From IMG/VR virus record IMGVR_UViG_3300030380_003967, positions 1-33,694 of that record: a stretch of 33,694 bases of DNA, one strand, 5' to 3'. Both the position numbers and the translations under genes were made by a program. Position 1 is the stretch's first letter. Each line of letters starts with the position of its first letter. Source of the stretch: a virus. The notes under the pieces are model-generated. The model made no database searches, had not been told where the DNA came from, and saw nothing but the letters and a program-made list of their open reading frames with translations. Positions 7,514 through 32,303 of this stretch are shown here, piece after piece.

Positions 7514-7535
7514 TTATTCACCAGTTTCCTATGTG

Positions 7536-7542
7536 TATTTAT
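7536..7542 (-). promoter_or_regulatory. T4-late-type promoter element ATAAATA
   Basis: Exact ATAAATA on the minus strand, overlapping the TAA stop of the 128-aa gene (7541-7539) and 23 bases before the gp13 ATG. Its placement is the same as at the other late-type elements and would drive the neck gene block. Confidence 0.6.
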
Positions 7543-8097: not shown

Positions 8098-8311
8098 TGA
8101 TTAACTCCTTTAGTAACGACTTAATATCATTGATATCATCTTTAATTGTAGCAACTTCATCTTCAATAGTTTGTATTTTCTGATTCTTCTCATTCTTAGC
8201 CTTTCGACTAGCAATATAAGTATCATATGATACTCTATTTACATTCACTATAGTGTTTGTCTCAGGATCTCTTGCGAGATCCTTATGACCTTTTTCTGTG
8301 TATACATCCAT
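8084..8311 (-). CDS. Small coiled-coil protein, function unknown
   Basis: 75 aa. The N-terminal half, MDVYTEKGHKDLARDPETNT, is polar; the C-terminal half (about residues 37-72) has regular heptads, with IQTIEDEVATIKDDINDIKS and LLKELING, so a short coiled coil is likely. It starts one base after the stop of the DUF4815 giant, so translation is probably coupled. I recall similar short proteins at this place in marine T4-like phages, without a known function. A spacer or adaptor for baseplate assembly is only a guess. Confidence 0.7.
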   Translation of the reverse strand: MDVYTEKGHKDLARDPETNTIVNVNRVSYDTYIASRKAKNEKNQKIQTIEDEVATIKDDINDIKSLLKELINGSK

Positions 8312-8312
8312 A

Positions 8313-11300: not shown

Positions 11301-14300
11301 AGTAGAAGAATAAACTTCGGGAATAATTCCACCATTAACATAGGGATTATCTGGATAAACCTCTGTTGGTGAATTATAATCACCTCTTCTATGATTGGAT
11401 TGAGCGACTCTAAAATTAATAGTGGGATTAGTGTCTTTACCTTCTTCACCAAGACCTGCACTGATAACTCTTCCTTGAACTGTCTCACCAACCTGGAATA
11501 CCCCAGAACTCATTGTAATTTCAATTAGTTTAGGAACACAATACTTTGTAACCTCCTTACCATCAAAGAAAGCATAAATTTGAGTGCTTGGTTTTAAGTT
11601 TGCTGCATAGAATTCTACGTTTCTTGATCTTACTGCAGAAATAATTTCCGTACTAAGAACTTTATCACCAACAGAAACTTCATCAAAAGTTTCAACAACA
11701 TGATATTGAGTACCAGTTCTTTCCCGAATTCCACTTTCAATTGTATCAGTTACATCCTGCTCAATTGGTTGAGTAGTGGTCTGTCTAACCCATGCAGCAG
11801 GTCCTCCAGATCCACCATTGATCCATCCACCTCGTCCAAATGTATTACTGCTACTAGTACTGGATTGTCTAGTATCAGTTTCAGTTGTAAATGTACCAGA
11901 CCAATTTGTCTCCCAAGAATTCCATATTTCAGAGGCAAATCCAGTTTCAGGATCAACACCATATTTTTCTTCAGCCTCAGACATGATCTGAGAATAATTG
12001 CCAATAGTATCAATTGTTCTTGCTTCTAATCTAGTTTGATCGACCCAGTTATCAGAAGCGGGTGTCAAAACAATTGTTCCTTGCCAGAAACTAATTAAGA
12101 AAGGAGTTACACTTTCAGTTCTGGTTGCAAGAGTTTGTGACAACCATTCAATCTCAGAAAAATCAAGACTGATAATGTCATTTTGTTTTCTAACATTAGA
12201 TCCATCTATAGCAGAGGTTCTTTTATCCGCAGTAGGATCAACATCAACAACAGGACCTGTCTGCAAAGCAAATGAATTTGTGCTATGCTTTGGTCTAAGA
12301 ATATTATTTGATTGATCAATACTATTATTTCTACCAACTCTCAAATCTTGAGTAGAGAATGATGTAAAGTTATCTACAAAGAATCCAGATTTAAATCTAT
12401 TGAGACCGTTTGCATCAGGTACAAATTGATTAGCGGTATTTGTTTCTAATATAGAGAGAGTTGTATAATATTCTAAATTTTTAATTCTCTCTTCAAGTTT
12501 TTTGATATCCTTCATCTGATATCTCTTGTACTTCAAGAATTTAACAGATGCTTGTTGTACGTTATGAAGATATGGAGGATATTCTATCGTAGCAAGTTCA
12601 ATTGCATTAGCAGGAGACTCTGGTTGTGCTCTCTTTGGATCATCTGCAGGTGTTCCAAACTTCATCTGCAGTTTCCCATCTCTATGCAAATAAAGTCTAT
12701 CAATTCTTCCTTGATAATATGCATAATCTAAGAAAATAGTCTCATTAGATGCAAGAATACTCGGAACAGAATTTCCTGTTGCATTAAAGGATCTTCCAAG
12801 GAATTCTAAAGGAGATCTAGTTGCTTCGGCAACTGAATAGTCATTAACTCTTGGTCTTAAATCAATGAGATCTGTATTCAATACTCCATTAATCGCTTTA
12901 ACTTCAGTGGAATAATCAAAATCATTATATGATTCAACTGTAACAATATCTCCATCATCAGAGGAATCAAATGATGCTGCTTTATAATATACTTTAATTT
13001 TATTTTTTGGGGAATCTGAATCAGTTTTTCTAGTTATAAAACCATGATTGTAGATTGTTCCTCTCTGTCCAGATCCAAAGGTGTAATTTGATGAAATATT
13101 AAAGGAAGTTGTGTTTAAATTACTTACTCCTCCAGAGATAGAGGATTCTTGGAATACAACTGTTTCTCCCTCTACAAACTTAAAATTATTCTTAGGAAGA
13201 TATCTAAGAGTAGATGTATCTTTTACTTCTGAGAATACAGCAACTGCTCCACTTGTTTGTCCGACAATTAATTCACCAATAGTCATATCTCCAGTTGAGG
13301 CCGTAGGTCCATTCAACTGAGTCAAAGTCATTTCTGGAGATCCAAAATTAGCATCACTCAGACTAGAATCAGCAGTTTCATATATTGCATGAATTTCAAT
13401 AATGTCTGGTGTGTTTAGTGATATGATGTTATCTTGAATTCTGGTTCCAAATGGATAATTTCCATAAGTTAATCCATCATTTAAAGTGGTTGAACCAATT
13501 CCAGAAGCAGGATTAATTGACTTATCAACAACTAAAGATTTAACTCTATCTTTAATTTTTTTCTTTGACTTTACATTACTCTTTTTAACAGTAGTAATAA
13601 GTTGAGCTCCAGTGTCATCCGCACGTAAACCTCTAATTTGAAGTTCTCTAAGATCTGCAGAGAATGAGAAATTATTTTGAGTTAATGGTTCAGTTGTGCC
13701 ATCAGATCTGATGAGAGAATATCTTTTATCAGAATATGAAAGATAAGTTTCTCCTTCTGGAAGTGTAATCGACAATAAACTGGTAGAACTTAGTCGGTTA
13801 TTTACAATATCTACAGTAAATGGTTTTCTAATTGTTAATTCAGCATCTGTCAGATCAACAGAAGCAATATGTTCATTTGGTAATTCTGTATAGAAAGTTG
13901 TATCTGAAGAAGAATCTAATTGAGTGCTAACAACTTTAAGATCTGATGCTGTAAAGTTTGATGATGTTGGTAATGTACCATCAGCTACACCAATGACTGT
14001 GGTTACTCCAACAACAGTCACTTCTGATGTTGTAACTCCCACAACTCTTGCTAAAATTGGATCTTGGGATATAGAAAGGTCTGAATATTGAAGTAAATTA
14101 TTTACTTTTACTTTGCCAGGGAATAAAACATTTGAACTACTAATTGTACTAAAACCGAGGACATTATCAAAAGGAGTAACGGAAGCAACTCCTACAGTTA
14201 ATGTTGGAGTTTGTATAACGTTAGCACTAAAAGTATTAATTCCAGCTACATTTAGCTGAAGGTCTGGATCACCTGCAATTCCAGTATTTGAAAATACAGA

Positions 14301-15995: not shown

Positions 15996-17549
15996 TTAGA
16001 ATTGCAAGATAACTTTTATGTCTTCTTTTTGGTTTGACGATCTTGTAATCGAAGGTCTATTATCTACGTATATAATATTGCCAGAATGCTGTTTTACTTC
16101 TGGGGACGCAACACCTGTAGTGAAATCCATTCCAAGATAATATACACGATTATTTATCGTCGTTTTGTTATCGCTAAATGTACTATCAATACTCAAAGGA
16201 AGTCCTGTTGTGGGAGTAATTGCTAGCGATCCAGTTCCACTTGGACTTCCAGTAAAATCTTGTAACTGATAACCATATGTTGGGTTAGTAACTCCAATTC
16301 CAGTGGATGTGAATCCAGCCACAGTTCTATCTTGCCAAAGTTTTAAAACTCCAGTATTCTGATCATAATTTACGACCCTGCCAACTGCTGTAACTCCTGT
16401 TCCGACTGACTGAACAACAAATGAATCGGCAGTAAAAGTTGCCTCACTAAATCCAACACCTGTTAATTTTAAAGCGGTAACTGCACTTACTTTGTCTGCT
16501 GTTAGTATTGATCCTCCAGCTGGGGAAAGTGGATTTTCTACAACACCAATTCTTGCAAATTGATTACCAGTAATAAAGTCTGGATTCTCATTATCACTCT
16601 CAATTCTTGAATACATTAGTACACTATATGCACCAAGTTCTCTATAAATGTCAGCACCATGCCCACCTTGTGGAGTTATAATTACTTCAAATGTCGGTCT
16701 AGTCGTTCCTGCTGGAATTCCAGCAGATTCAAAATCAAGAGTTCCAAAAGTATATCCAGATCCCTGAGCAGATATAGAAACTTCGTCAATTTTTGAATCT
16801 CCATCAATAGTAACAGTGCATTGTGCTCCTGTACCATCACCACGAATAGGAACTCCAGTATATGTTGTATTTGCTGTTCCTAATCCAACACCACGATTAG
16901 TTACCGTTACAATTTTAATAGAACCATCTACAGCATTTTCTCTGACTAAAGAAGTGTCATTACTAGTACTCCAGTCTGTAGGAACTGGCATAAAATCTGT
17001 AGAATCAAATTTTATAATATCTGCTGGTTTGATAGTATAAAGATATTTCCAAATGTATCCATCACCGCTAGTTCCAGCCGCCTTTGGTTCTAAATCAGTA
17101 AAAGTTGGTTCATCCAGAGATGGTCTACCGAGAGTATTTTCTGGATTTGTTCCGTTTTGCAGACAAATGTAAACTCTGTAATCACTGTTTAAAACATAAA
17201 AATTTGAGTTATAAAGATTAGTAGATCCAGAAACAGGAGCTGTGTTTGATCTACTATAATTATGACGATACATGTCAAAGGTAGTTCCAGAAGACCAAAA
17301 TCTTTTTGGAACCACTTGTCTAACATCAGTGGAATTAATTCTCTTCAAAGCAATCATTGTATTCCAATAATCATTCTCCTCATCAAAATTATCTTTTGGT
17401 GAAGGAGGATTATCATTCCATGTAGAGGAATAGTCTGTCGGATTTGGAAGTCCGACAAAAGAATAATAGGAATTACTGGCATTAGCAATTCCTGCGACAA
17501 AATTTTTCGCATTTAATATTCTTACTTGATCAGTTATGATAGCAGCCAT
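15996..17549 (-). CDS. gp8: Baseplate wedge protein gp8
   Basis: 517 aa; T4 gp8 is 334 aa. gp8 is a wedge subunit that joins the gp10-gp7 arm in T4 baseplate assembly. The N-terminal part, with SYYSFVGLPNPTDYS, DNFDEENDYWNTMIALKRI and RQVVPKRFWSSGTTFDMYRH, and a later VYICLQNG with GDGYIWKYLYTIKPADIIKF, is the marine T4-like gp8 pattern. Residues about 214-277 carry beta-repeat units (VTNRGVGLG and ISAQGSGY). It follows the gp7-like gene after 35 bases that contain a late-type promoter. The C-terminal region, with YYLGMDFTTGV and IKVILQF, is intact. Confidence 0.88.
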   Translation of the reverse strand: MAAIITDQVRILNAKNFVAGIANASNSYYSFVGLPNPTDYSSTWNDNPPSPKDNFDEENDYWNTMIALKRINSTDVRQVVPKRFWSSGTTFDMYRHNYSRSNTAPVSGSTNLYNSNFYVLNSDYRVYICLQNGTNPENTLGRPSLDEPTFTDLEPKAAGTSGDGYIWKYLYTIKPADIIKFDSTDFMPVPTDWSTSNDTSLVRENAVDGSIKIVTVTNRGVGLGTANTTYTGVPIRGDGTGAQCTVTIDGDSKIDEVSISAQGSGYTFGTLDFESAGIPAGTTRPTFEVIITPQGGHGADIYRELGAYSVLMYSRIESDNENPDFITGNQFARIGVVENPLSPAGGSILTADKVSAVTALKLTGVGFSEATFTADSFVVQSVGTGVTAVGRVVNYDQNTGVLKLWQDRTVAGFTSTGIGVTNPTYGYQLQDFTGSPSGTGSLAITPTTGLPLSIDSTFSDNKTTINNRVYYLGMDFTTGVASPEVKQHSGNIIYVDNRPSITRSSNQKEDIKVILQF

Positions 17550-17584: not shown

Positions 17585-20500
17585 TCATGCAAATTTTTTG
17601 AACCTAATATATCTGGTTCTATAAACCTTCGATGAAGTAGATATACCAGTAAATTCATTTGTTCCTATTCCAGACAAGGTGTGTGCTGGATATGAAAGTT
17701 CCTTAGTTCTAGCATTTAAAATAATTTTACCCCAGGAGTACTCTCCAAGGAATGCTCCTGTTGAGAATCCAGAAACTCCATTTGGATTTAGATTAGTATT
17801 CACGGTTACTTTAGCAACACTAGTGGTGACTCCAGCAATTATTTGAGTTGCTATTCCAACAGAATTTACAACATATACATTATCAAGGTATTCAGATCCA
17901 ATTCCAGTAATTGTGGTGTTGTTGGTTCCAAGAGCATTAATACTAGTTGATGCAGTTCCCAAGTTAGAATTTCTAACCGTAAAGAAATCTCCAATAGCCA
18001 ATCCACTTATAGTTACAGCGGTTCCAACTAAATCAGTGTTCCTCATGACAGAATCAAGTGGAATATGAAGATGGAATGCGATTCCAGTTGATCCAACACC
18101 AACGGAAGTTGTTCCCAATCCAACAATTATTCCAGAATCTCCAGAATATCCAGAAGTTATAACATTACAAGACTCTGTTTGCTGTGCAGGAGGTCCTATA
18201 AGAACTAATGGTGGATTAGTTTGAGTATATCCAGATCCACCGTTAGTAATCGTAATTCCAGTAACAACACCATTAGTAATTGTTGCTGTTGCAGTTGCTG
18301 TTGTGGATCCTATACCAACACTTACATCAGGTGTTGTTGAATATCCAACACCACCATTGTTAATTGTGATTGAGGTAATAGTTCCAGCAGAAGAAACTAC
18401 AGCAGTTGCTGCTGCTCCAGTAACAACCACTGGATTTACTAATCGTATTCCTTTTTGAATAGTATTTCTAAATGTAGGATCTATATTTTCATTATTAAGA
18501 TCAAATAGAGGTCTCACTCTATCAACATAGATTATGGTAGATCCAATACCAACAGGACTAATAATATTTGCAGTTGGATTAATAACAGGTTCATAAATTT
18601 CTCTGTCTTTGCCAACTTCCTTACCATTAATAATCTTATCTTGAGTTTGTCTACACCATGTTATTGGTCTTTCAAAAGTAGTATCAGTAACATTTCCTGG
18701 TCCAAAGTATGGAAGAGTATTGCACTTATCAACATTTGTAATAGAACTAATTGTTCTAGCATTTTCTTGCTGATATGGTTTTTGACCCTGATCTGGATCA
18801 TAATTTAAAGTAACTTCATCTCCAAATTTAATAGTTTCAATAACTTCTCTCTCAATAACATCTAAATCATCTCCACTTCCTTTATAGAAAACAATTCTAA
18901 GAGTGTCATCAACCTTTAATGGTTCAGAGAAAGTTATTTGAGAACCACCATTAAACTGATAAGATTCTCCAGGACGCTGAAGTATTTCATTTACAAATAC
19001 TAACAGTAACTGGTCAAGTTCAATCTTCGATCCTTTTGATTTGTTAATAGATATTGGGACACCAGCTTTGAGTAATGGGAAATCAATTCTGGTGCCATTA
19101 ATAAATTCAGAAACATCATCAAATGTTTCTAGAACACCTAAAGACCACCCACTGAATTCATCATTAATAACTTTTTCAATTTCAATCTCAAATACGTTTG
19201 AAGAAGAGAATGATGAAGTGGTAGGGATTCCAATTGTTCCCCCGATAGCAACCGTTAATCTATCCTCATTCGCATAACCAAATCCTGTATTTGTAATTTC
19301 AAAATCAATAACACTAGATCCTTGACCAACTACAACATCAATCTTTGCCTGTGTTCCCAGTCCAGTTGTTCCTGAGACATATTGCAGAGGTAAATTAGAG
19401 TATGATAGTGGACTATCAATAACTACAAATGGTGGATTAGTTGACGTATATCCAGATCCTGGATTTGTAATGGTTACGCCAGTAATATGACCACCTACAA
19501 TAGATGCAGTTCCAATGGCAACTAGATTTGAACCACTAACACTTGAAGTGCCAATACTGACATTAACAGATGTTTGAATCCCTGCTCTATACCCAGATCC
19601 AGAATTACCGATAGAAACTGAAGAAATTGTTCCCAATCCAGAAACAATTGCTGTTCCACCTGCAGCAACTAGTGGTTGATATCCAAGACCTTCTTGAGAA
19701 CCAACAGAAACGATAATTCCTCCTTTTGGAAAACTAGAAATTCCAACATCATTTGTTATCGTTCTAGATAATCCGGTAAAAGTAATAGAAGTAATTCCAG
19801 TGTTTTCGGATAGAGTAAAGTTATTTGCTCCGCCAGTAACTTGATATATGTCATTAATTAATACAATCGCACCTTCATTATCAATTCCAGTTACATTATT
19901 ACCATCAGACTCTAAAGTAAATTCATTTTCTATACCATTAAATTGATTTGAAATATCATCAAAAATGTAGTTCTTGTAATATGTTTCATTAGTGGTATCT
20001 GGCTGAGCCGTTCTCATGAAACTTCTTCCTTGGAAGGTAGAACTTGTTGTTATACCTACATAATCTCTCTGATCAGGTGGATTAGTTGTAGATCCAATTG
20101 GAGTATTTCCATATGGTGCTTCAACAAAATTCAAAGAATTTCCAACAATGTTGTAATTTCCTGTAACTTTTGTTACTAAATCACCAGTTGAAAGTCCAGT
20201 TTGGATAGTTGTTCCCATCCATCCTCTGCGAACCACAACTCTATTGGTAGTTCCTATACCAACTCCATCAACTTTCATTATTTCGTTTTCGACCTTAAGT
20301 AAGTCCCCACCAAAAATAGAATTTAAACTAGTTAATTCAATAGTATTATCTGTGCTTACTACAGCGTCTTCCAACGTTGTTGTAACAGCAGTAGAAACAA
20401 TTGGAGACTGAATAAGATTGTCAATAGCAACTAATACTTTTGGATTTTGATTTGTTGCAACAAACGAATGAGTAGCTCCAATTCCAGCAGCACCGACCGA

Positions 20501-23500
20501 AGTTAAGTTAAGAACTTTAGGCACAGACTTCAGAGCATCTTCTGCACTTCTAGAGAGTTGAATGGTATTATCATTAACTTTAACTGCAAATACTCCCGTT
20601 GAAGGAAGTAAATTAGTTGTAACTCCAGTTACAGTAAATGTAGTCTGAGCAATACCAATTGATCCTGTATTTCCAATACCTGGTCCAACATATGCAATTT
20701 GTTCTCCAGTTACATAGAAGTGATTTGGAATTTCAATAGTATCTGAGGTAAGATCAATTACACTTCCAAAGAATGTTCTTTCAAAGATGTTGTCATTTTT
20801 GTGAGTTAAATTAAATGATCTCTTGATGTCTCTTTCAGTTCCAGTGTATTCGCCATATCCAGTCTCTATTGTTCCATTATTCAAACTAATTACGTCCTTC
20901 GTATCATCTTCAATCCTAAGAGCATTGGTATATACATGAACAGTTGCATCAATTCCTGATATTGGTGTAAAGAGAACTTGAGTAGTTGCAGCAAGTCCAA
21001 CAGAGTTAGCAATTACTCTAGATCCAAAAGTTCCAAGACCAGAATGAGTTTGAATATTTGCAAACTCAGTGTCAAATGTTTCTCCAGTTGATTCTCCTTC
21101 AATATGATCATCTACGACAAAATATTCTAAGAATTCATACCGATCATTTGTAGTATCATGAACTTGAATCATAAAATATCCAGCATCATATTTGTCTATC
21201 TCAGAAGAGATATGACTTGGATATTCTGCAACAACATTTTCAGTTGGTGATCCAGATGATGCAATATCAGTCATTGTCGATTGCAATCTGGCATGTTTTA
21301 GATCAAGTGTAGAGATGCCAGAGGTTATGGAGGACAATCCAACGACAATAGTATTAACTACTGCATTTGTCCCTATTCCAGACGGATTGAAATCAAGTTT
21401 AATATTAGAACCATCCAAACGTGCAGTATAAGTTCCAAATCCAGTTGCGCTTATTCCTCCAAAAGAAGTAGTTAATTTACCATATTCTAAGATAGATACG
21501 TCTGTTCCATCATGAACGATGTTTAGTTCTTGAGCCTCAAACTCATTTGAATTAAATGTTGCAGTGTTTCCAAAAGATGGGTTGCTAACATCTGGAGCAA
21601 TTTCAACAAGGACCTTCAAGGAGTGATATGTATTACCAATACTGACAATATTAGCAGTAGTTCCAGAACTTACGATTACACTTTCTGAGTCAATTAAGAC
21701 TCCTCCAATAGAAGTGGATCCTGTGCTAAGATAATTATCATTTAAATTATAGGAAATTGTTGTAATATCATAATCATTTACTGATGATCTATTTGGGTAG
21801 AATAATAACTGACCTTCTGTGCCAGATATTGAGAAATCAAAAGATCCTTGATCGTATACAGTTTCTATTCTTGCATATTGGTTAAGATATCCAAAAGTTC
21901 CATCATGAATAAGATCAACAATTAAAGCCTGCCTTTCTTGAGTAAATCTTTTGTCTCTCAAATAAGTAAAATACTTTCTAAATCTAAAATCTTCTAAATT
22001 GAAATTATTAAGTACACTAAAAGCAGTTGCTCTAGGACTATTATTAAATTCTGGACTTATATCATCAATAGAAAGAACTCTGTTTCCAAATGACTCCGTA
22101 AAGTCGATTAAGATTTTATTATTAAGAAAAATCTCATCAGAAAGAATTGTACCGTCAGAAAGATTTAAATTATTTTCCGTAGCAATATCAAAATCAAATA
22201 CGCAATTTGTATCAATAAATCCATCCAAACTACTTACAATAGTTACATCAGTCAATTCGGTAGAAATTCCAACCTGTATTGATTGATCTAGATTCGTTGA
22301 TTCAATTTGAAGATCACCAAACTTTTTATACCCAAGAGTATGATTTACGGAAGATACAACATTTTTCCAAGTATCAAATGGAACAGTACTCTTTAATGAG
22401 TAAGAGAAATTTTGATAATAAAAACTATCTTGCAATCTTTGTATATTATCATTTAAGAATCCTGATCCGGTTTGATTACCACTGAATATTTGAGATGAAA
22501 CATCAGTCTCAAAATAAGATTCATATGAAGTTACTTTTGAAGCAACTCCAGAAAGTTCCGAAGTAAGTCCTTTTACAATATCTCCTGATACAAAACTATC
22601 GGATGAAAGAACTCTAAGAATCTTTGTTGTTTTATCCCAACTTTGAACAACACCTTCCTTTCCATTTGTAGTAACTTTCTCTCCACTAAGATAATCGGCT
22701 GTGGATACTTCTATATCAAAGGTTGGGAAATTCTTCTCCGCTGATATTACTCCAGAAGAATTAATAGCATCAAATGTACCAGGAGTTTCTCCATCATTCA
22801 ATTCATCACCTAAATTGTAAGTGACTGATCCAAGTCCTCCGAGATTTGTGGTAATTCCAGTAAGAGTGAATAGTTTATAATTATAATCTTTGGAATTATA
22901 TCCACGAGCTGTTGAACCAATTCCAATACTTGTATTTTCAACTATTATCCTATCACCAACTTCAAATGGGAATGATGTACTAAATCCAACTGACAGATTT
23001 AAAGTTACCTCTTTAGTAACGGTATTAAATCCAACAGTGCTAATTCCAACTCCATTAGTATTTTTTATTGGCAATACTGATGGAGTGGCATTATTAATTC
23101 CCCTAGTATTACTTAAAATAGTTACTGTTGAATCTCCTAAAGAATACTTAGTTGAAAGATCAGTAATTTGATTCCCAGTCTTACCGTCGAAGAAAATTAA
23201 TTCTGGTGCTGAAGAGTATCCTCTTCCTCCAGAAACTATAGAAATATTTTCAATTTTAGCAAAAGAATCTACCGTAATAATTTGTGGAAGAGATGCACTT
23301 GGTTTTAATGTTTTATCTGTTGGGAAATCATAACCAATATCTTCAATTTTTACTTTTTCAATAATTCCAATATCTTCAGTAGTAGATACTAAATCACCTT
23401 TTACTCCATCAATAGTGTTAATAGATACAATAGAAGGTAATGTAGTATAATTTTTTCCAGAACTGGTAACTTCTACTGCAGCTATTGGTCCAGATGTATG

Positions 23501-26500
23501 GGTGCAATCAGTTATATAAGATAAATCAGATAAAGTAGATGTGTATGAATCTGCTTCAGGAGCTTCTGTTAGATTAAATGTAAAGAAGTTAGTTCCTGCG
23601 ATAGAAATTCTTCTATTTCCATTATAGACGCTGTTTTGAGTTATTATGGAATTATTATTTAAGATTTCAGAATCTTTTATTATTGTTAATTTTTCTTCGG
23701 GAAGATTTGTATTAGAAACTGGATCAAGTGAATAGTAAAGTCTCTCTGGTGTAGTTTTTCCAATAGAAACTCTTACACTAGCAGAAGAAGATCCGGAAGA
23801 TCCTGTTCGAGAAACACTAAATGTTGATGATGACTGATCAGTTTCCCAACGATTTGTATATTTGTCATCTAGATAGAAATTCAGTTTAAATGCAGAATAT
23901 TGAGTAGATTGTTGAGTAAATCCTAAAGAAGAATCTGAAATATCAAAGTCTAATATTGAACTTCTATAAGCTTTAATTGAAGGGTTAACTAATCCAAACT
24001 CGCCAAATGATGTACTTGCAATTCCAACGATATTTGGTATTAAATTAGTCGAATCATAATAAGTATTAGATAATTTAATATTATCATTATCAACTTTTAC
24101 AATATAATAAATTTTATCATTCTGTAAACCTTGACACGGTGCAGTTGATGAATGAATTACCTTGTCTCCACTTTCATAACCATGATTGGTTATGCCGATA
24201 GTATTAGTAGTGCTATTAACACCTACAGCACTGAATGTTTTTATACCAACTAATGCTCGTCTGTGAGTATCATTGTACTTTACAACATATGTTGTTGCAA
24301 ATGATGGATTGACATCGATATCAACCCTGTGTTCTCCGCGAATACCATGATTTACATCTGTTGTTACAGTTACAACTCTCTTTATAACATCAGCAGTTAT
24401 ATTACTATAGTTTGTTGCAAAACTATGATTTGTTCCACTACCAATACCTGTAAAGAATAACGTCGTAGTTGTATTTCCTACTCCAACAAATCCACCAGTA
24501 GAACCAAGTCCAACTCGTTGAGTTGCAATACCAATTAGGTCATTTGAAATTTTAGCAACAAAAACATCCTGCCCATCAGATAGAGTTTTAGCAACACCCA
24601 CACTACCAACTTCATTATAGACAATACCCTGTCCACCATTTGGAGAATATGTTAGTGTATCACCTGTTTCTAGTCTATGATTTTTTATGTAAAGGGATTT
24701 AATGGGAACCGCAAGAGTACTAGATCCAAAAGTTGTTCCAAGACCAACGGTGTTTAATCCAAAAGAACTAAATTGTAACACAGATCCAATTCCAACAGCA
24801 GTAGTACCAAGACCTACTGTTTCTGTTGGGTTAAAATATATTTCTCGATTTCTCTTAAAATCATACTTTGTTTTAAATCCAGATTTAAATGTAAATCTTC
24901 TTGGGTCTTCAGATAAAATAGATCCAACAGTATGAGATACTCCAACAGTACCATCTACTTCTCGAAGAACTTTAAATCTAGAATTATCTCTATCTACATT
25001 TAAAACTTTTACTCTCTCAGTACCAATACCCAAAATATCATTTGGTACAATATTTGATGCAATCAAACTTGATGATACATTGAAGAAAGTTACTACTCCA
25101 GTGATACTAGTGTTTCCAACAGCAACTCCAGTAGTACCCAATCCAACAAGCGAGAATCTCTCACTTGAAACTCCTATTGAATATGACCCTTCAATTTTTG
25201 ATGATGTTGTAGAAATACCCGTAATATTAACAATATCTAATGATTGAAAATTGTGTGGGGACTCTGATTCTATAATATATGTTCCTCTTTTAGTTGAGGG
25301 AATTAATTCAACATCAGATAATTTATTTGTAGAAGCACTAATACTATTGACAGTTTTTCCTTTTAATCTGGAGATTCTTCCAGCTGCTCCAAATCCAGTT
25401 GCATCTTCATCAGAAAAGTTTAAAGTTTCTCCGATTCTGTAATTATCACCAGAACTTTTTATTTCTACTCTAGAAACTTTTCCTCTATTTGTAGATATAA
25501 TTTTTCCTGTTTGAGATAAATTGTTTGGAGAATATATGTAAGGATATTCGATATTATCTTCTCTCAAATTATATGAGATTGTATTCCTACACCAATTGTT
25601 TGATTCAATATCAAAATCATCTTGATTAGAAGATTTTTTAAAGTTGAACTCATTTGGAGTAGAATAATAAGTATCACCTAAAACATATGGGAATTGAGGA
25701 AGTTTATAATTTTCAAATAGTCCAGAAGACTCTATACTATCAGGATTAACTGTAACAAAATAAGCATAAGTTCCATTTGGATATTCTGGTGTTATACAAA
25801 ATCTTCCATTATTCCTATCAAGATAATCATTGTCATTATTTTCATGATAAGTAAAATCTTCTACAAAAAATCCTAATGGAAAAGTTGATACTGGCGGACC
25901 ATCTGTACGTGATGAATTAAGTTTGTAACTAGACTTCATCAATGTAACTATTCCACCATCATTATTAGAATATCCATATGGTCCATAAATTGGATTTCCA
26001 TCGTAAGCCCAACCAATAATTGGGGAATGATCAGTAAATTCTGTTTCTTGAGAGTTAACTAGTTTTAGATCTGGTTTTCCATATAAAGTATCTCCACCCT
26101 CTGAAACAGAATAAACCATTTGTCTTAATGATCTTGGTGCATACAATGAATAGCACTGTAATCCATACTGATCACTTAAAGATTTTTGTAAAACAATATC
26201 ATCATTTTTAATGACATCATTAACGTATAATTTTTCAAATAAGTTTACTCTCCATTTTTGAATTTGAGGAATGAAAGAAAAGTCTCTCTCTGCAGTGGAT
26301 ACTTCAATACTTACATCTCCAGAAACGTATCCTTCTCCTGACTCTACAACTCTTACTTCCTGAAGAGTTCCATTTATTAAAATTGGAGTTAAGATGCATC
26401 CAATTCCAGAACTAGATATTATTTCTAAATCTGGAATAGATGTATAATTAGATCCAATATTTTCTATGATAACCTCTATGATTTTTCCATCAGAGGAAAC

Positions 26501-29500
26501 AACAGGTTTGACCTGAGCGTTTTTACCAGATACTACAGATATGTTGGGTAATTTATTGAAATTAATAATATTATTAGTTCCATATCCAGATCCTTGATCA
26601 GATAAATGTATCGATGTTAGTTCTCCTCTAAAAATAGGTTGAACTTCAGCCTTATATGCACTTGATTCAATTCCTGTAACTGTTGATATTCCAACAGGTC
26701 CCTCTACAGTAACAGTTATTGGGGGATAATTAAAAATTTGAGTTCCCGTGCCAGTGCTAGTTAAATTAACATATTGATTTGTTCTATAGAAGAAAGTTTT
26801 ATCAGTTGATCTAATTTCAGATAATTTAAATTGATTATTATCAATTACTGTAACATAGTAATCAGTGTCATTGTTTAGTCCACCAATCGCACTTGTTCCA
26901 GCAGAATATCTTAATGTCTCTCCAGATCTATAATCATGATTTTCTATAGTAATGATGTCGGATGAAGTATTAATACCAGTGGAAACAACACTTCTCTTTT
27001 TATTTTCATAACCAGTTCCATTATTAACAATGTTTATTGAATCAATGACAGATTTTCGCGATGTGCATTCTAAAGTATGTCTTCCAATACCATGAGAAGA
27101 TAAAACAACTGTGTTAATACCAACAATTGCTTGCTGTAAAGTGTCATGTAACTTAATTGTGGTTGCATTAACAACTTCTGCAAAATATGTAGAATTGGTA
27201 GATAATCCACCAACTATTTTTTGAGAATTTGGTTTATATATTAACTGCTCACCATTTCTAAATTTATGAAAAGTTGAAAATCCAATGGTAGAATCATCAG
27301 CACCTGTAGAAACTTTAGCAGAATTTGAATCCGAGAAAAATTCTACAGAATGAGAAATTAATTTTGTGTTTACTAATGCTCTAGCATCTTTTCCATTTCC
27401 ACCTGTTATTGAAACGATAGGAGTATCTGTAAAATCAAATCCTCTATCAAGAATTTGTATTTCTCTTAGGTTTCCATTAACAGCAAGAAATCCTGTTGCA
27501 CCAGAACCAACAGGATCTTCTATTTTTAATAAAGGAGGATTAATTATATCAAAACCATTTCCACCAGAAGTTACTTCAATTTTTTCTACTTTTCCAGTAT
27601 GAACTAAATCTTTTGATTTATAATTTAAAATTTCAACACCGTTAATTAAAATTCCAGTAGCTCCTGGAGAAGTTTTAACTTTAGTATTACTATCAATTGG
27701 TGTGCTTATTTCTCTATAAAGTCTTTGTGAATCTACAACTTTACCTTTTGTCTCTACCAGTTCTATAGTATTATCTGCAATGGTAGTTGATGTTGGTACA
27801 GATGCAAAATTTGATGTATATAAATTAGCAGGAGATTTGGCTAATTTTATGTTATTATTATCTACTCTAAAAATATAATAAACTCCTTCACCACCAGTTT
27901 CTCCACCAAATAGTGAAGATATGACAGAACTTTCAACTATATCTTGTCCATCAAGGCTAACGGTTGTTTCAATTTTTTGCGGAGTATAGTATACAGATTC
28001 TCCTCCATAAAATCCATGCTCATTTATGGTTATAGTTTCTCCAAGAAATGTACCACCAAATGTTTTTACAGATTTTGATGCAATGAGAGGTACATCTTTA
28101 TATGAAGGTAATGAGTTTGATGCAACTAAAATTGAATCTCCATATTGTTTTTTATAAATATTCTGAATATTTGCATTAAATTTATTAAGATGAGTAAAAT
28201 TTGAAGAAGTTACTTTTCTCAATTTTCTTGTCAAAGTATAACTTGCTAAAACATTAAGTGTTCCAGAGGTTTTAATTGTTATAACTTTGTCGGTGATAAT
28301 ATCAAGAACTTCTGCATCAAAAGAATCTGCTCCAGTTAGAGAATCTATAGTTACAGAATCTCCAAGAGATAAGTAATTTTCTTTGTTTAAAGTTAATTTA
28401 TAAGTTTTTGGCGAAACACTACTAATTAACTCAACTTTATTAATTGAATATTTTACTGGATTACTATACAACCAATTTTTAAACTTAAATGTATCGTCTT
28501 CAATACCAAGAGTTTTTATATTAAATTGATCTCCTGTTTTATAATCAAATATACCATCTTGTTTTGAAAATCCAGATAAAACAGACGTAAGACGAACTTT
28601 AACGTCAATATCGGAAGGTTCTACTGCAGCAAAATTTTCTGTAGTTAAAGTGTTACCATCAATCAAATCATCGGTAATATTAGTGCAATCTAAAAATTGA
28701 GTTATTGTTTTAGATGTATAAGAAACAATGCCTGTTGTATTTGTGATGGAATTTGGATATGTTACATAGATTTCTCCAGAATTGGGAAATCCTATTGTTG
28801 AATCTACGTCAATAAAAGTAGATCCAGCAGAAACAGTTCCAATTATATGAGTTTTTGGAGCAACTTTAAATTTACCTGAGGTAGATCCAAGAACTCTAAT
28901 ATCTCTATTATATCCATCATCAAAAGAGAGTTTATAAAAAGTTTTTGCAGTTCCTGCATTTATTGTTTCAATATCATATATTGAAGTATAAGTTTCATCA
29001 TTATCACCTTGGAATATAGTTCTACTTTCTAGATCTGAAGGATTGCCCTCAATTGATTCTACTAAAAAATTAGAAGTTACTAAGTTTCTAGCATTTGAAG
29101 GTGTGAACAGATAATCTCTTGGTTTTGTTATTTCAACATTTACACCATAAAGAGCTTTAAATAAAATTTTATAAGATTCATCTGTTCCTTTACTTGTGTA
29201 AAAGTCTTTTGCCTGCTTTATGAAAATATTTTTATTCAAATTCGATGCAAGAGGTCTATCAGATAACCCTGGCAGAAGTTGAATTTTAGTTTTATTTAAA
29301 AATTCTTTTAAGAAAAGGCAGCTTAAATTTTCAATAGTCGCGCCATCTGTATGTTCAGCAGATGAAGTAGAATTAAAGACAAGATCCCCTTGATTGGTAT
29401 CGGACTTATATGAAGTTACTCCAACAAATCCCCTAATGCATCCAGTGAAAGAAGAGGATGTTTTTCCAGTGTAAGTTATTACCTCATCACCTATTCTTAG

Positions 29501-29800
29501 AAGGCCATATGAGTCTGGAAAATGATTTGTTCCGTCTGGAGATTCTGAAAGATTTACATTTATTGTTGTTGTAAATTCATCAATATCACCATTCAAAACT
29601 ATTTCATGATTTAAAGTAGTCTGCTCATCAACCTTTACATATTGATCGATATTTTGTATTAAATCAACAGGGCCACTTTTGTATTCCTGACCAATATAAT
29701 ATTGCTTTAAAAATTCAGAGATAAGAGGGAACTCATTCTCAACATAAGTTGGGAGCTGGTTCTTGACGATGTTGCTAAACTTGATTCTTGTTTCTGCCAT
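17585..29800 (-). CDS. gp7: Giant gp7-position baseplate wedge protein with YHYH-type domain
   Basis: 4,071 aa, about four times T4 gp7 (1,032 aa). gp7 begins wedge assembly with gp10 in T4. The N-terminus (KNQLPTYVENEFPLISEFLK, residues about 13-32) and the 150-250 region (FLNKTKIQLLPGL, then KDFYTSKGTDESYKILFKAL) look like marine T4-like gp7-position proteins. So do ERPITWCRQTQDKIINGK and the C-terminal GEYSWGKIILNARTKEL. A YHYH-type domain lies near 1200-1330, with SPIIGWAYDGNPIYGPYGY and NGRFCITPEYPNGTYAYFVT. The rest is small beta modules: at least 15 GxGY units, six H-x-x-G...KLS units (for example near 588, 840, 949, 1703, 1868, 3019) and two RG modules. The frame is uninterrupted. Orthology to T4 gp7 rests mainly on position between gp6 and gp8. 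No strong ribosome site is seen. Confidence 0.85.
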   Translation of the reverse strand: MAETRIKFSNIVKNQLPTYVENEFPLISEFLKQYYIGQEYKSGPVDLIQNIDQYVKVDEQTTLNHEIVLNGDIDEFTTTINVNLSESPDGTNHFPDSYGLLRIGDEVITYTGKTSSSFTGCIRGFVGVTSYKSDTNQGDLVFNSTSSAEHTDGATIENLSCLFLKEFLNKTKIQLLPGLSDRPLASNLNKNIFIKQAKDFYTSKGTDESYKILFKALYGVNVEITKPRDYLFTPSNARNLVTSNFLVESIEGNPSDLESRTIFQGDNDETYTSIYDIETINAGTAKTFYKLSFDDGYNRDIRVLGSTSGKFKVAPKTHIIGTVSAGSTFIDVDSTIGFPNSGEIYVTYPNSITNTTGIVSYTSKTITQFLDCTNITDDLIDGNTLTTENFAAVEPSDIDVKVRLTSVLSGFSKQDGIFDYKTGDQFNIKTLGIEDDTFKFKNWLYSNPVKYSINKVELISSVSPKTYKLTLNKENYLSLGDSVTIDSLTGADSFDAEVLDIITDKVITIKTSGTLNVLASYTLTRKLRKVTSSNFTHLNKFNANIQNIYKKQYGDSILVASNSLPSYKDVPLIASKSVKTFGGTFLGETITINEHGFYGGESVYYTPQKIETTVSLDGQDIVESSVISSLFGGETGGEGVYYIFRVDNNNIKLAKSPANLYTSNFASVPTSTTIADNTIELVETKGKVVDSQRLYREISTPIDSNTKVKTSPGATGILINGVEILNYKSKDLVHTGKVEKIEVTSGGNGFDIINPPLLKIEDPVGSGATGFLAVNGNLREIQILDRGFDFTDTPIVSITGGNGKDARALVNTKLISHSVEFFSDSNSAKVSTGADDSTIGFSTFHKFRNGEQLIYKPNSQKIVGGLSTNSTYFAEVVNATTIKLHDTLQQAIVGINTVVLSSHGIGRHTLECTSRKSVIDSINIVNNGTGYENKKRSVVSTGINTSSDIITIENHDYRSGETLRYSAGTSAIGGLNNDTDYYVTVIDNNQFKLSEIRSTDKTFFYRTNQYVNLTSTGTGTQIFNYPPITVTVEGPVGISTVTGIESSAYKAEVQPIFRGELTSIHLSDQGSGYGTNNIINFNKLPNISVVSGKNAQVKPVVSSDGKIIEVIIENIGSNYTSIPDLEIISSSGIGCILTPILINGTLQEVRVVESGEGYVSGDVSIEVSTAERDFSFIPQIQKWRVNLFEKLYVNDVIKNDDIVLQKSLSDQYGLQCYSLYAPRSLRQMVYSVSEGGDTLYGKPDLKLVNSQETEFTDHSPIIGWAYDGNPIYGPYGYSNNDGGIVTLMKSSYKLNSSRTDGPPVSTFPLGFFVEDFTYHENNDNDYLDRNNGRFCITPEYPNGTYAYFVTVNPDSIESSGLFENYKLPQFPYVLGDTYYSTPNEFNFKKSSNQDDFDIESNNWCRNTISYNLREDNIEYPYIYSPNNLSQTGKIISTNRGKVSRVEIKSSGDNYRIGETLNFSDEDATGFGAAGRISRLKGKTVNSISASTNKLSDVELIPSTKRGTYIIESESPHNFQSLDIVNITGISTTSSKIEGSYSIGVSSERFSLVGLGTTGVAVGNTSITGVVTFFNVSSSLIASNIVPNDILGIGTERVKVLNVDRDNSRFKVLREVDGTVGVSHTVGSILSEDPRRFTFKSGFKTKYDFKRNREIYFNPTETVGLGTTAVGIGSVLQFSSFGLNTVGLGTTFGSSTLAVPIKSLYIKNHRLETGDTLTYSPNGGQGIVYNEVGSVGVAKTLSDGQDVFVAKISNDLIGIATQRVGLGSTGGFVGVGNTTTTLFFTGIGSGTNHSFATNYSNITADVIKRVVTVTTDVNHGIRGEHRVDIDVNPSFATTYVVKYNDTHRRALVGIKTFSAVGVNSTTNTIGITNHGYESGDKVIHSSTAPCQGLQNDKIYYIVKVDNDNIKLSNTYYDSTNLIPNIVGIASTSFGEFGLVNPSIKAYRSSILDFDISDSSLGFTQQSTQYSAFKLNFYLDDKYTNRWETDQSSSTFSVSRTGSSGSSSASVRVSIGKTTPERLYYSLDPVSNTNLPEEKLTIIKDSEILNNNSIITQNSVYNGNRRISIAGTNFFTFNLTEAPEADSYTSTLSDLSYITDCTHTSGPIAAVEVTSSGKNYTTLPSIVSINTIDGVKGDLVSTTEDIGIIEKVKIEDIGYDFPTDKTLKPSASLPQIITVDSFAKIENISIVSGGRGYSSAPELIFFDGKTGNQITDLSTKYSLGDSTVTILSNTRGINNATPSVLPIKNTNGVGISTVGFNTVTKEVTLNLSVGFSTSFPFEVGDRIIVENTSIGIGSTARGYNSKDYNYKLFTLTGITTNLGGLGSVTYNLGDELNDGETPGTFDAINSSGVISAEKNFPTFDIEVSTADYLSGEKVTTNGKEGVVQSWDKTTKILRVLSSDSFVSGDIVKGLTSELSGVASKVTSYESYFETDVSSQIFSGNQTGSGFLNDNIQRLQDSFYYQNFSYSLKSTVPFDTWKNVVSSVNHTLGYKKFGDLQIESTNLDQSIQVGISTELTDVTIVSSLDGFIDTNCVFDFDIATENNLNLSDGTILSDEIFLNNKILIDFTESFGNRVLSIDDISPEFNNSPRATAFSVLNNFNLEDFRFRKYFTYLRDKRFTQERQALIVDLIHDGTFGYLNQYARIETVYDQGSFDFSISGTEGQLLFYPNRSSVNDYDITTISYNLNDNYLSTGSTSIGGVLIDSESVIVSSGTTANIVSIGNTYHSLKVLVEIAPDVSNPSFGNTATFNSNEFEAQELNIVHDGTDVSILEYGKLTTSFGGISATGFGTYTARLDGSNIKLDFNPSGIGTNAVVNTIVVGLSSITSGISTLDLKHARLQSTMTDIASSGSPTENVVAEYPSHISSEIDKYDAGYFMIQVHDTTNDRYEFLEYFVVDDHIEGESTGETFDTEFANIQTHSGLGTFGSRVIANSVGLAATTQVLFTPISGIDATVHVYTNALRIEDDTKDVISLNNGTIETGYGEYTGTERDIKRSFNLTHKNDNIFERTFFGSVIDLTSDTIEIPNHFYVTGEQIAYVGPGIGNTGSIGIAQTTFTVTGVTTNLLPSTGVFAVKVNDNTIQLSRSAEDALKSVPKVLNLTSVGAAGIGATHSFVATNQNPKVLVAIDNLIQSPIVSTAVTTTLEDAVVSTDNTIELTSLNSIFGGDLLKVENEIMKVDGVGIGTTNRVVVRRGWMGTTIQTGLSTGDLVTKVTGNYNIVGNSLNFVEAPYGNTPIGSTTNPPDQRDYVGITTSSTFQGRSFMRTAQPDTTNETYYKNYIFDDISNQFNGIENEFTLESDGNNVTGIDNEGAIVLINDIYQVTGGANNFTLSENTGITSITFTGLSRTITNDVGISSFPKGGIIVSVGSQEGLGYQPLVAAGGTAIVSGLGTISSVSIGNSGSGYRAGIQTSVNVSIGTSSVSGSNLVAIGTASIVGGHITGVTITNPGSGYTSTNPPFVVIDSPLSYSNLPLQYVSGTTGLGTQAKIDVVVGQGSSVIDFEITNTGFGYANEDRLTVAIGGTIGIPTTSSFSSSNVFEIEIEKVINDEFSGWSLGVLETFDDVSEFINGTRIDFPLLKAGVPISINKSKGSKIELDQLLLVFVNEILQRPGESYQFNGGSQITFSEPLKVDDTLRIVFYKGSGDDLDVIEREVIETIKFGDEVTLNYDPDQGQKPYQQENARTISSITNVDKCNTLPYFGPGNVTDTTFERPITWCRQTQDKIINGKEVGKDREIYEPVINPTANIISPVGIGSTIIYVDRVRPLFDLNNENIDPTFRNTIQKGIRLVNPVVVTGAAATAVVSSAGTITSITINNGGVGYSTTPDVSVGIGSTTATATATITNGVVTGITITNGGSGYTQTNPPLVLIGPPAQQTESCNVITSGYSGDSGIIVGLGTTSVGVGSTGIAFHLHIPLDSVMRNTDLVGTAVTISGLAIGDFFTVRNSNLGTASTSINALGTNNTTITGIGSEYLDNVYVVNSVGIATQIIAGVTTSVAKVTVNTNLNPNGVSGFSTGAFLGEYSWGKIILNARTKELSYPAHTLSGIGTNEFTGISTSSKVYRTRYIRFKKFA
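18195..18370 (-). repeat. GxGY beta-unit pair in the giant (C-terminal)
   Basis: Encodes INNGGVGYSTTPDVSVGIGS and ITNGGSGYTQTNPPLVLIGP, with an Ala/Thr strand between them. The second shares most DNA bases with the copy near 19410-19480 (both read plus-strand tatccagatcc), so the units are similar as DNA as well as protein. Confidence 0.75.
19245..19615 (-). repeat. Three GxGY beta units in the giant
   Basis: Encodes IGNSGSGYRAGIQTSVNV, ITNPGSGYTSTNPPFVVI and ITNTGFGYANEDRLTVAIGG in succession, spaced about 45-60 residues. They are the same unit as in gp14. Confidence 0.75.
25900..26050 (-). other. YHYH-type domain core in the giant
   Basis: Encodes residues about 1250-1300, with SPIIGWAYDGNPIYGPYGY. 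The G-W/Y-A-x-D-G-x-P-I-Y-G-P core is the signature of YHYH domains; the later TPEYPNGTYAYFVT corresponds to the C-terminal part. The namesake Y-H-Y-H is not kept (here TYAYF), so any metal-related role of the family may be lost. Confidence 0.65.
26310..26605 (-). repeat. Three GxGY-type beta units next to the YHYH domain
   Basis: Encodes LSDQGSGYGTNNIINF, IENIGSNYTSIPDLEI and VVESGEGYVSGDVSIEV, ending just before the YHYH-type region. The central copy has G-S-N-Y in place of G-x-G-Y, showing divergence between copies. Confidence 0.65.
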
Positions 29801-29818: not shown

Positions 29819-31900
29819 TTAGTAACCGCTGCCTGAACCCGAAGGTGTTGATGAACCACCAGTTGCACCGCTAGTGCTAGTAGTAACAGTGGTTGTACCA
29901 GTAAAGGAACTATTGGTAGAAGTAGTCGCATTCACTGCATCGGTTGCTGCAGTAGTTATAACATTATCAGGACCACCAGCACGAACCAAATTACCCTCCG
30001 CATAAGAAGAAGAAACGATATAATTTGATGCTGATGGATCAAGTCCTGATGCAATTTCGTCTGATACCATTTCAAATGTACTGTTACTAGTATCTAGTTG
30101 CAAATAAAGGTCCTGTAATCCAACAACATCATTTGACAAAGGTGTTGCTTGAATTTCTATAATTTCTTGACTATCTTTTTGCATAGCTGCAATAATATTG
30201 ATTGCATTAATGGTTATAATACCATTTACATAATCAATAGTTCCTACATTAGATCGTATAACGACTGGACTTTGAGATCCTATATTAGGGACAGTAAAGA
30301 AGAATAAAGTTCCGGTTTGTCTATTTGAATTAGGTATGTCACCAATATAAACATTTTCAGAAATTCCAGAAACTCTAAAAGAACTAGTTTTTATATTGTA
30401 ACCAGTCATGCTTGAAATATAAAATTGATTACCAAATCCAATTTGATACTCTGCAATAGTATTTGGTACTACTCTCAAATCTCTCCTCATTTTTACAACA
30501 GTAATGTTTGAAGTTACTGAATCATGACTATCATCAATTATTTTCAAAAATTTACTATATTTAAATCGAGCACCATACTTATTTAATTCAGTAGAATCTG
30601 CGTATTTAGCGGCATTATTAGAAACTATTGTTGATACCTCAGCAGCTGATGGTGCTAAATTTGTATTGTAGTAAACTCTTGAACTTACTTCTAAGTAAAG
30701 ATATTTGAGATCTAAGATTTCAGGAACAACTCCTGCTACTGCATATTTTTTTAATTTTAGTTTAATATTATCTTTGATTAAATTGGGAAGAAAATCTCCA
30801 AATCTAGGTTTGATGCTGATAAACACTTTACCGTACTGTGGAGGAATTAATTCTTCTCCACCAAATACCGAAATAGACTCTGTATCTGGATATATCTTTG
30901 CAGGAATTAATGTTTCATAATCATCCGCAGTTACTGCACGATTCTGAGTTGAATAAATTTTTGGTGCATATTTTCTAACAGATTCAACTTCTTCAATTGC
31001 AGATCCACCTCTAGAACTATACTCAGGTGTTATAAGTGATATACCAGATGTAACTGTATATTCACTTCCATCTCTTACATAAGTCAATCTGCCGTTAAAC
31101 GAAAATTGTGAGAATCCATTTCCAGCATCACCATTAGTTACTAAGTAAGTAACTGTGATATAATTCTGATCATCAAGTTTTTTACCAAAAACTCCATCAC
31201 CAAAAAATACTTCATATCTTTCATCTGATACTTCTTGTAAGAAATATACTTTTGAATCGGAACCAACATAGAATAAATTATCCTGCAAAGAATACTTTAC
31301 CGTTGCGGTTGAAAATTCGTTATTCTTAACACCTACTCTAATTAAGTCGGTGTCAATTCCTACATTTGGTAAAATAAACTTTTGTTGAGGATTTCTAGCA
31401 CTAAAAGTAAAATTCTTTTCTACAACTGTTCCTTCATAGATGGGTATCTCGTTAAAAGCAGCTACTCCATTGATCACAGGAACGGTTATATCATCTAAAA
31501 TACAGAATGCCCCACTAGAACCACCAAAGACCCCAGTAGACGCTGCTACAGTCCCTTTACGGAGGGTTATAGACGCAGGTTTAGGGGTTATGTTAGATGC
31601 ATCAACAAAGAATGATATTGCAGATATTGCTGCTTTTCTTGATCTAGGAGTATACCCAACGTTTCTTGCTAATGCTACTACATTTTCTCTTAAAGTTGCA
31701 GTATCAATAAAAACTTCGTTTGCCACCATGTTAGCATTATACGAAGTAATATACGTATTATATGCTAATACATCTAAAATGGTTGATAGGTTAGAGCCTT
31801 CAAAGTCATAGTCCGTAAAATTGGAATTTGACTTTAGGTATTCTTTGAGAGTGGTTTTAACGTCCTCAAAGTCTAAATTTGTAAAATTTACTAGTGACAT
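29819..31900 (-). CDS. gp6: Baseplate wedge protein gp6 (Baseplate_J family)
   Basis: 693 aa; T4 gp6 is 660 aa. gp6 forms the continuous inner ring of the baseplate by dimerising between wedges. Family marks are TILDVLAYNTYITSYNANMV (about 45-64) and ENVVALARNVGYTPRSRKAA (about 73-92); RAVTADDYETLIPAKIYPDT (about 320-345) and YGKVFISIKP sit in the Baseplate_J core. VTNGDAGNGFSQFSFNG lies between these. The last 45 residues are almost only Ser, Thr, Gly and Ala, ending SGSGSGY, a disordered tail not expected from T4. It starts with ATG one base after the gp25 stop (TAAAATG, with AAGG just upstream), so it is coupled to gp25. Confidence 0.92.
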   Translation of the reverse strand: MSLVNFTNLDFEDVKTTLKEYLKSNSNFTDYDFEGSNLSTILDVLAYNTYITSYNANMVANEVFIDTATLRENVVALARNVGYTPRSRKAAISAISFFVDASNITPKPASITLRKGTVAASTGVFGGSSGAFCILDDITVPVINGVAAFNEIPIYEGTVVEKNFTFSARNPQQKFILPNVGIDTDLIRVGVKNNEFSTATVKYSLQDNLFYVGSDSKVYFLQEVSDERYEVFFGDGVFGKKLDDQNYITVTYLVTNGDAGNGFSQFSFNGRLTYVRDGSEYTVTSGISLITPEYSSRGGSAIEEVESVRKYAPKIYSTQNRAVTADDYETLIPAKIYPDTESISVFGGEELIPPQYGKVFISIKPRFGDFLPNLIKDNIKLKLKKYAVAGVVPEILDLKYLYLEVSSRVYYNTNLAPSAAEVSTIVSNNAAKYADSTELNKYGARFKYSKFLKIIDDSHDSVTSNITVVKMRRDLRVVPNTIAEYQIGFGNQFYISSMTGYNIKTSSFRVSGISENVYIGDIPNSNRQTGTLFFFTVPNIGSQSPVVIRSNVGTIDYVNGIITINAINIIAAMQKDSQEIIEIQATPLSNDVVGLQDLYLQLDTSNSTFEMVSDEIASGLDPSASNYIVSSSYAEGNLVRAGGPDNVITTAATDAVNATTSTNSSFTGTTTVTTSTSGATGGSSTPSGSGSGY

Positions 31901-31901
31901 T

Positions 31902-32303
31902 TTACCTTGTTGGTTGCAATACGAATTCTAATTGTTGTGTTGGGATATCATCTCCAATAATGTCATATATGATAACCACATCAAATGCATTGCCATCAAT
32001 ATTGGCATTTGCATCAACAGACTTTAAATTAACCCTTGGTTCATACCTATTAATAGATTCTTCAATTTGAGTCTGAATTTCAATTGCAGTTAAATCATCG
32101 GCATTTTCAAAAAGAGAATCAGTAATGCGAGATCCAAATCTTGGATTAAAAAATTTCTCTCCAGGATTTGTAAAAACAATATTTTTTACTGATCTTGCGA
32201 TTGCATTCTCATTTTTCATCGCAATTAAATCCTTAGTCAGAGGATTAGTCTGAAAAGACATACTAATATCTTTAAATCCTTGACTTATCCTTTCTAAAGG
32301 CAC
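31902..32303 (-). CDS. gp25: Baseplate wedge protein gp25 (GPW/gp25 family)
   Basis: 133 aa; T4 gp25 is 132 aa. gp25 is a small wedge protein clamped by gp6 and near the sheath. Family signs are NPGEKFFNPRFGSRITDSLF, IEESINRYEPRVNL and a C-terminal IIYDIIG with QLEFVLQ. The start is GTG at 32303, reading GTG-CCT-TTA-GAA. No in-frame ATG lies near, and the start fits the family N-terminus (PLERISQGFKDISMSF). No Shine-Dalgarno is visible. A late-type promoter lies 21 bases upstream, so a leader of about 16 bases is likely. gp6 follows after one base. Confidence 0.93.
   Translation of the reverse strand: MPLERISQGFKDISMSFQTNPLTKDLIAMKNENAIARSVKNIVFTNPGEKFFNPRFGSRITDSLFENADDLTAIEIQTQIEESINRYEPRVNLKSVDANANIDGNAFDVVIIYDIIGDDIPTQQLEFVLQPTR

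Follow-up and report, generated by a model that had tools for sequence, protein, structure and literature searches.

A giant wedge protein at the gp7 position of a marine T4-like virus appears to be a divergent gp7 homologue with a recombining cassette site

In phage T4, gp7 is a subunit of the baseplate wedge; it binds the gp6 dimer and starts the building of the tail base. T4-like phages abound in the ocean, and little is known of the way they attach to their hosts. The T4 record gives gp7 a length of 1,032 aa, as an earlier note on the DNA studied here had stated. The size and continuity of a giant form are already known, a protein of 4,156 aa being annotated as gp7 in the public record of phage S-SM2. 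In the accessible part of PMC3037559, gp7 is counted in the non-cyanophage core, with divergent clusters.

We analyzed a window of 33,694 nucleotides, positions 1–33,694 of a 35,652-base contig of a marine cyanobacterial virus (IMG/VR record IMGVR_UViG_3300030380_003967), whose relevant features are collected in Table 1. The main genes run in one direction in the order gp25, gp6, gp7-position gene, gp8, VrlC-annotated gene, gp13, gp14, gp15, and gp16, with 18 bp between gp6 and the gp7-position gene and 35 bp between the latter and gp8. This locus between gp6 and gp8 is common to the window gene, T4 gp7, and the gp7-position genes of the relatives. The uninterrupted frame of 4,071 aa announced by the earlier note was borne out by the open reading frame list and by translation, which meets no internal stop, as well as by family and blastp matches. 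Indeed, PHROG 2885, a baseplate wedge family of 4,179 positions, matches the protein in two stretches, the best covering residues 1–3422 with 3,596 bits, and this match together with one-piece blastp alignments to five cultured phages excludes a chance ORF. An NCBIfam search with the protein gave zero matches. Elsewhere in the window, the gp14 neck protein (5214–6668, 484 aa) has a C-terminal part that matches PHROG 2885 positions 3907–3958 (E 1.6e-8), within the repeat region of the giant gp7, so that neck and baseplate proteins have repeats in common. A 681-aa gene at 1666–3711, between gp16 and a partial ORF at the window end, has a C-terminal piece that matches tail fibre and wedge families.

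Table 1. Features of the gp7-position gene and of its neighbours, in window coordinates
Feature	Position	Strand	Residues or length	Remarks
gp7-position gene, giant baseplate wedge protein	17585-29800	minus	4,071 aa	ATG start
N-terminal core region	28691-29800	minus	residues 1-370	most widely common to marine gp7s
Block N, core helix	29093-29323	minus	residues 160-236	homologous to T4 gp7 ~727-759
Inter-block insertion	22481-29092	minus	residues 237-2440, ~2,204 aa	chain of small beta domains
YHYH domain (PF14240)	25736-26035	minus	residues 1256-1355	E 3.9e-25
Block C (YYQ..SY...W...H..G)	22301-22480	minus	residues 2441-2500	near C-terminus of compact S-H34, phiM12
C-terminal extension	17588-22300	minus	residues 2501-4071, 1,571 aa	
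Expansion site	19406-19600	minus	residues 3401-3465	short allele in window
gp6 baseplate wedge	29819-31900	minus		upstream neighbour; PHROG 219, E 1.1e-187
gp8 baseplate wedge	15996-17549	minus		downstream neighbour; PHROG 438, E 2.9e-164
gp25 baseplate wedge	31902-32303	minus		PHROG 261, E 1e-54
Large structural gene, VrlC-annotated family	8313-15989	minus	2,558 aa	after gp8; PHROG 358; DUF4815

Within its clade the protein is of ordinary size, the cultured relatives measuring 3,884–5,195 aa. The gp7-position proteins compared are those of Bellamy (4,067 aa), SynMITS9220M01 (4,067), S-SM2 (4,156), S-B05 (4,024), S-SCSM1 (4,120), P-TIM68 (4,307), S-8S53 (3,891), S-CAM9 (3,884), S-SRM01 (3,895), ACG-2014f (4,225), S-CAM7 (4,314), S-T4 (4,749), P-SSM2 (5,195), P-HM1 (4,446), S-H9-1 (3,530), S-PM2d (3,048), S-H34 (1,942), HTVC008M (1,016), phiM12 (1,007), and T4. 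Others are split over several genes, namely in B23 (2,845+1,081 aa), in S-SSM6a and S-SSM7 (3,007+340+3,001 aa), and in S-SM1 (6,180+407+1,387 aa). A single end-to-end blastp HSP joins the window protein to those of Bellamy (49.6% identity), S-SM2 (44.6%), SynMITS9220M01 (41.3%), S-B05 (38.1%), and S-SCSM1 (35.7%). The earlier note had set growth by insertion against a constant length and domain order throughout the family: the near clade does show such constancy, but the wider family, at 1,007–6,180 aa, does not. In the environmental contigs L033, L073, and L080 the gp7 ORF lies in several frames, through sequencing error or decay.

Kinship with T4 gp7 is seen most clearly in block N. When a profile of residues 1–1000, built from 57 sequences, was compared with 177,635 distinct PDB sequences, two matches were obtained at E ≤ 1, both of them T4-type gp7 (E 2e-5 and 3.7e-5), and window residues 192–224 aligned with T4 726–758. 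In hhalign against a profile of four T4-like gp7s, window residues 193–295 matched T4-like positions 727–815 with a probability of 96.8 and an E-value of 2.9e-10; with shuffled T4 gp7 (10 shuffles per block profile), the probability was at most 0.4% among the matches listed. The T4 residues before ~643 have no match in the window protein. Block C gives a weak signal in the T4-like profile (near T4 863–896, probability 46, P 2e-4) and in each of the four T4-like gp7s, with i-E of 1.5e-4 to 4.7e-4 in this small set, at constant spacing and in the right order; a search of the PDB with the block C profile retrieved no gp7 at E ≤ 10. The N-then-C order is kept in 4/4 T4-like gp7s, in phiM12, in HTVC008M, and in S-PM2d081, the T4-like gp7s and S-PM2d081 having been absent from both block models. 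Block C is present in 20 aligned sequences, picked because they matched it, and is followed by 49 aa to the protein end in S-H34 and by 20 aa in phiM12.

The Pfam models Gp7_helical, Gp7_5th, and Gp7_6th, all three found in T4 gp7, have no match in the window protein at E ≤ 1. Since the core helix is nevertheless homologous, the window protein would be a divergent gp7 homologue rather than a T4-type gp7. In another Pfam wedge model, PF23786 (284 positions), blocks N and C adjoin in the profile; it matches HTVC008M at 153–230 and 231–276, and the same halves are matched with weak E-values by pieces of S-H34, S-H9-1, and S-SM1. PF23786 matches window block N below the cut-off and does not match the block C piece. 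The HTVC008M protein (L005:18436-21486), which has both gp7 blocks, is annotated as "head closure Hc2", possibly via shared repeats. The gp7-like ends described in the earlier note thus hold for the N-terminal core and not for the C-terminal end, where the second block is internal and the ~1,570 C-terminal residues form an extension.

An AlphaFold model of residues 1–1000 (pLDDT 69.8, pTM 0.32, a low confidence) contains helices at 2–55 and 159–230 and mostly short strands elsewhere; nearly everything after residue 230 being strands, the model is consistent with the many small beta units noticed earlier in the middle of the protein. A Foldseek search with this model gave nothing at E ≤ 0.001, and gp7 was not among the matches listed. 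Small beta domains fill the structure-search results: residues 313–390 resemble a tail tube domain of a phage (Z 10.4), and residues 448–528 resemble beta-barrels of V-ATPases (Z about 9). Neither the YHYH region nor the C-terminal extension gave anything useful when its sequence was searched against the PDB. The 100-aa YHYH piece matches 461 phage records; the names tallied all belong to cyanophages or unnamed marine viruses, with one exception, the Actinomycetia phage DSL-LC01 (OQ999401.1).

The two blocks provide a measure of how the protein has lengthened. They lie 101–105 aa apart in the T4-like gp7s (n = 4), versus 516 aa in HTVC008M, 796 in phiM12, 1,571–1,604 in S-H9-1, S-PM2d081, and S-H34, 2,130–2,231 in the window and its class, 2,340 in P-HM1, and 2,706 in S-SM1. 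Hence a large part of the marine protein sits inside the gp7 core. After block C, the chain measures 20 to 2,682 aa across the marine forms and phiM12. The family appears to have grown by insertion between conserved parts, the right-hand part being internal and the extension being added after block C. The repeated insertion of modules proposed by the earlier note agrees with this separation of the blocks and with the cassette polymorphism described below, but not the idea that growth is spread over the protein: near relatives are colinear, and when the window protein was aligned globally with 13 named orthologues, 65 of its 4,071 positions took up 2,263 of the 5,423 inserted residues. Internal duplication was considered as a source of length and rejected, self-BLASTP giving 0 pairs (E ≤ 0.01) and TRF only two trivial DNA tandem repeats.

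These 65 positions form the expansion site at residues 3401–3465, from which most of the length variation among near relatives stems while the chassis hardly changes. Between fixed anchors, the site measures 57–66 aa in 8 of 14 phages, 155–156 in two, 275–278 in two, 658 in S-T4, and 1,142 in P-SSM2. Total length follows site length with r = 0.97 (n = 14), and subtracting the site lowers the length variance from 121,017 to 9,121 and leaves a chassis of 3,827–4,151 aa in 14/14 phages. Where an HMM match was partial, as in several of the 14 phages, the anchor ends were set by manual extrapolation, and the global alignment offers independent support for the same site; the table of site lengths leaves out B23, S-SSM6a/S-SSM7, S-SM1, P-HM1, S-H9-1, S-H34, and HTVC008M, which are split or do not have both anchors. 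The second-largest insertion bin, residues 3801–3900, holds 705 residues, mainly from S-8S53 and S-CAM9, two phages without ~390 aa at about 2600–3000. The expansion site is set among GSGY-type repeats, which may tolerate insertions. A module in the inserted material of P-SSM2, S-T4, ACG-2014f, and S-CAM7 recurs in S-SSM6a, whose second gp7-type gene gives 15 matches to it. Near the C-terminus, a second small indel site (window 17765–17808, residues 3998–4012) carries 20–30 aa in the environmental contigs L029, L037-L041, L046, L047, L077, L081, and L082.

In 44 sequences with both flanks of the expansion site, the short allele occurs 28 times, an allele longer by ~196 aa 14 times, and one longer by about 90 aa twice. 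On trees of the left and right flanks (restricted to rows that cover at least 93% of each flank), the long allele requires 8 and 9 changes, at least 7 of them forced by well-supported branches. The allele label is somewhat clustered on these trees (values as low arise in 4–27 of 500 shuffles), and part of the clustering comes from near-copies. The DNA junctions of the cassette are sharp, and in environmental relatives the site is dimorphic, alleles of about 125–145 and 715–730 bp lying within DNA that is 92–97% identical. Contigs L061 and L059 share 97.2% identity along 5.1 kb and 97.7% along the 3.3 kb that follow, and the lengths between these two stretches are ~124 versus ~715 bp; in L045 and L051, stretches of 11.3 and 11.8 kb at 92–93% identity are separated by ~144 versus ~732 bp. 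Such pairs show allelic replacement at one fixed place, the alleles being exchanged repeatedly in natural populations.

The long-allele cassette, carried by relatives of the window virus, matches PHROG 17885, a tail fiber protein family (E 5.4e-20), and 107 phage records, including annotated tail fiber proteins of S-PRM1, S-CAM9, and P-SSM2, so the swapped module resembles tail-fibre modules. A Pfam search with the cassette gave nothing significant. Its structural model shows small beta-barrels, the best Z, 9.3, being to an E1 enzyme barrel, followed by phage endosialidase domains (Z 7.3–8.1), and Foldseek gave nothing at E ≤ 0.001; since the confidence of the model is low (pLDDT 63.3, pTM 0.56), the fold gives no function. 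In the titles and abstract openings of the literature searched, no account was found of this cassette site or, for cyanophages, of a gp7 core made of two blocks; as far as these searches show, the internal architecture and the recombining site are undescribed, whereas the size is known.

A further suggestion was that the giant protein possibly replaces separate fibre or peripheral baseplate proteins. Searches of ten whole records found gp11 in that of T4 alone (no homologue in 9/9 non-T4 records) and the gp9/gp10 N-domain in four, namely T4, S-SCSM1, P-TIM68, and S-SM1; the near relatives Bellamy, S-SM2, and SynMITS9220M01 have neither. The suggestion fits the missing gp11 and the N-domain missing from 6/9 non-T4 records, but is not general, since the N-domain occurs in 3/9. 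In S-SM1, S-SCSM1, and P-TIM68, the interval from gp7 to gp8, or else the point where a split gp7 is interrupted, holds a gp9-type fibre-connector gene (PF07880); by annotation, S-SSM7 has such a gene in a like place.

Proteins at the gp7 position have been detected in virions. According to the accessible text of PMC10665884, virions of S-CREM2 contain ORF122 (91 unique peptides, 27% coverage), which from its table order and length probably occupies the gp7 position; in the part of PMC3037559 at hand, S-SM1 virions contain T4-GC969, the gp7-position gene as matched by locus tag. S-PM2d081, reported as a large hypothetical protein, is the gp7-position ORF between gp6 and gp8 and has both blocks (L197:11530-20676). 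During coexistence with Synechococcus in a chemostat, it was hit early by a non-synonymous mutation, as was gp8, and most early mutations stood at 100% in all three replicates, according to the available portion of PMC9910659. The same portion counts 33 early non-synonymous changes in 18 ORFs, so gp7 is not singled out.

We favor as probable a joint reading in which a gp7 homologue with a conserved chassis exchanges tail-fibre-type cassettes and presents an outward, host-contacting chain. The gp7 core formed by blocks N and C would anchor the chain in the inner baseplate, and the beta chain and the extension would project outward, taking over some of the tasks of T4 gp10, gp11, and gp12 and meeting the host surface. 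The extended gp7 would thereby fill the outer baseplate and might touch the host, with cassettes at the expansion site tuning adhesion. A stronger form, put forward tentatively as a possibility, is that in marine T4-like phages the wedge initiator and the outer, host-contacting baseplate have merged into one chain, the fixed-length beta chassis replacing gp10/gp11-type proteins and the one docking site, where co-occurring phages would swap cassettes, acting as a host-range switch within the baseplate. It is, on the other hand, unlikely though conceivable that length is neutral, the spacer beta domains setting baseplate geometry and the cassettes turning over at a tolerant loop without a host role. 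The near-constant chassis and the GSGY-type surroundings of the site suit such neutrality; repeated allele exchange and the tail-fibre-type cassette speak against it, and drift is still formally compatible with them.

Very unlikely is a tail-fibre-like or decoration protein at the gp7 locus, VrlC having taken the baseplate place of gp7. The accessible text of PMC7029224 describes gp7 as absent and apparently substituted by VrlC in cyano- and pelagimyophages, and much of the chain consists of generic small beta domains. However, both the PDB-wide search and the profile comparison recovered the gp7 core helix, and the 1,007-aa gp7-position protein of phiM12 has both blocks alongside a VrlC-like gene; the two-block core and this coexistence argue against the absence of gp7 as stated in that text, and so against marine T4-like phages lacking it. 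A misassembly fusing two genes can draw on the separate genes of B23 and S-SSM7, yet is vanishingly improbable and was rejected: five cultured genomes are collinear with the protein from end to end, environmental contigs L034 and L045 carry full-length ORFs at 88% identity, L083 and L075 are 100% identical to the two ends of the gene, and L029 spans gene nucleotides 7,321–11,837 at 95.8%.

With the favored reading of an exchanged cassette in a gp7 chassis, gain and loss of cassettes may adjust the hold of these viruses on their hosts. The source of most length variation in the giant wedge proteins of the near clade is explained, and the alleles of the one site named here allow direct host-adsorption tests in cultured cyanophages.

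Compared with the described systems, the window protein is closest to the gp7 of S-SM2, Bellamy, and SynMITS9220M01 (PHROG 2885), which share its locus and length class and are colinear with it at 41–50% identity; S-SM2 gp7 has ~90 aa more at the expansion site, and indels elsewhere are small. T4 gp7 (PDB 5hx2, 5iv5) is alike in its position between gp6 and gp8, in block N (E 2e-5), and, weakly, in block C in the same order. It differs in having ~640 residues ahead of the helical block and ~105 aa between the blocks, which are 2,204 aa apart in the window form and followed there by 1,571 aa. The proteins of HTVC008M, phiM12, and S-H34 have both blocks in the same order as the window with a shorter insertion; the C-terminal extension is missing from phiM12 and S-H34 and measures ~200 aa in HTVC008M, whose protein gave no YHYH match. 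Finally, the tail-fibre modules of cyanophages (PHROG 17885) are homologous to the 196-aa cassette of the relatives, which differs from them in being lodged at a single fixed site of a baseplate wedge protein.
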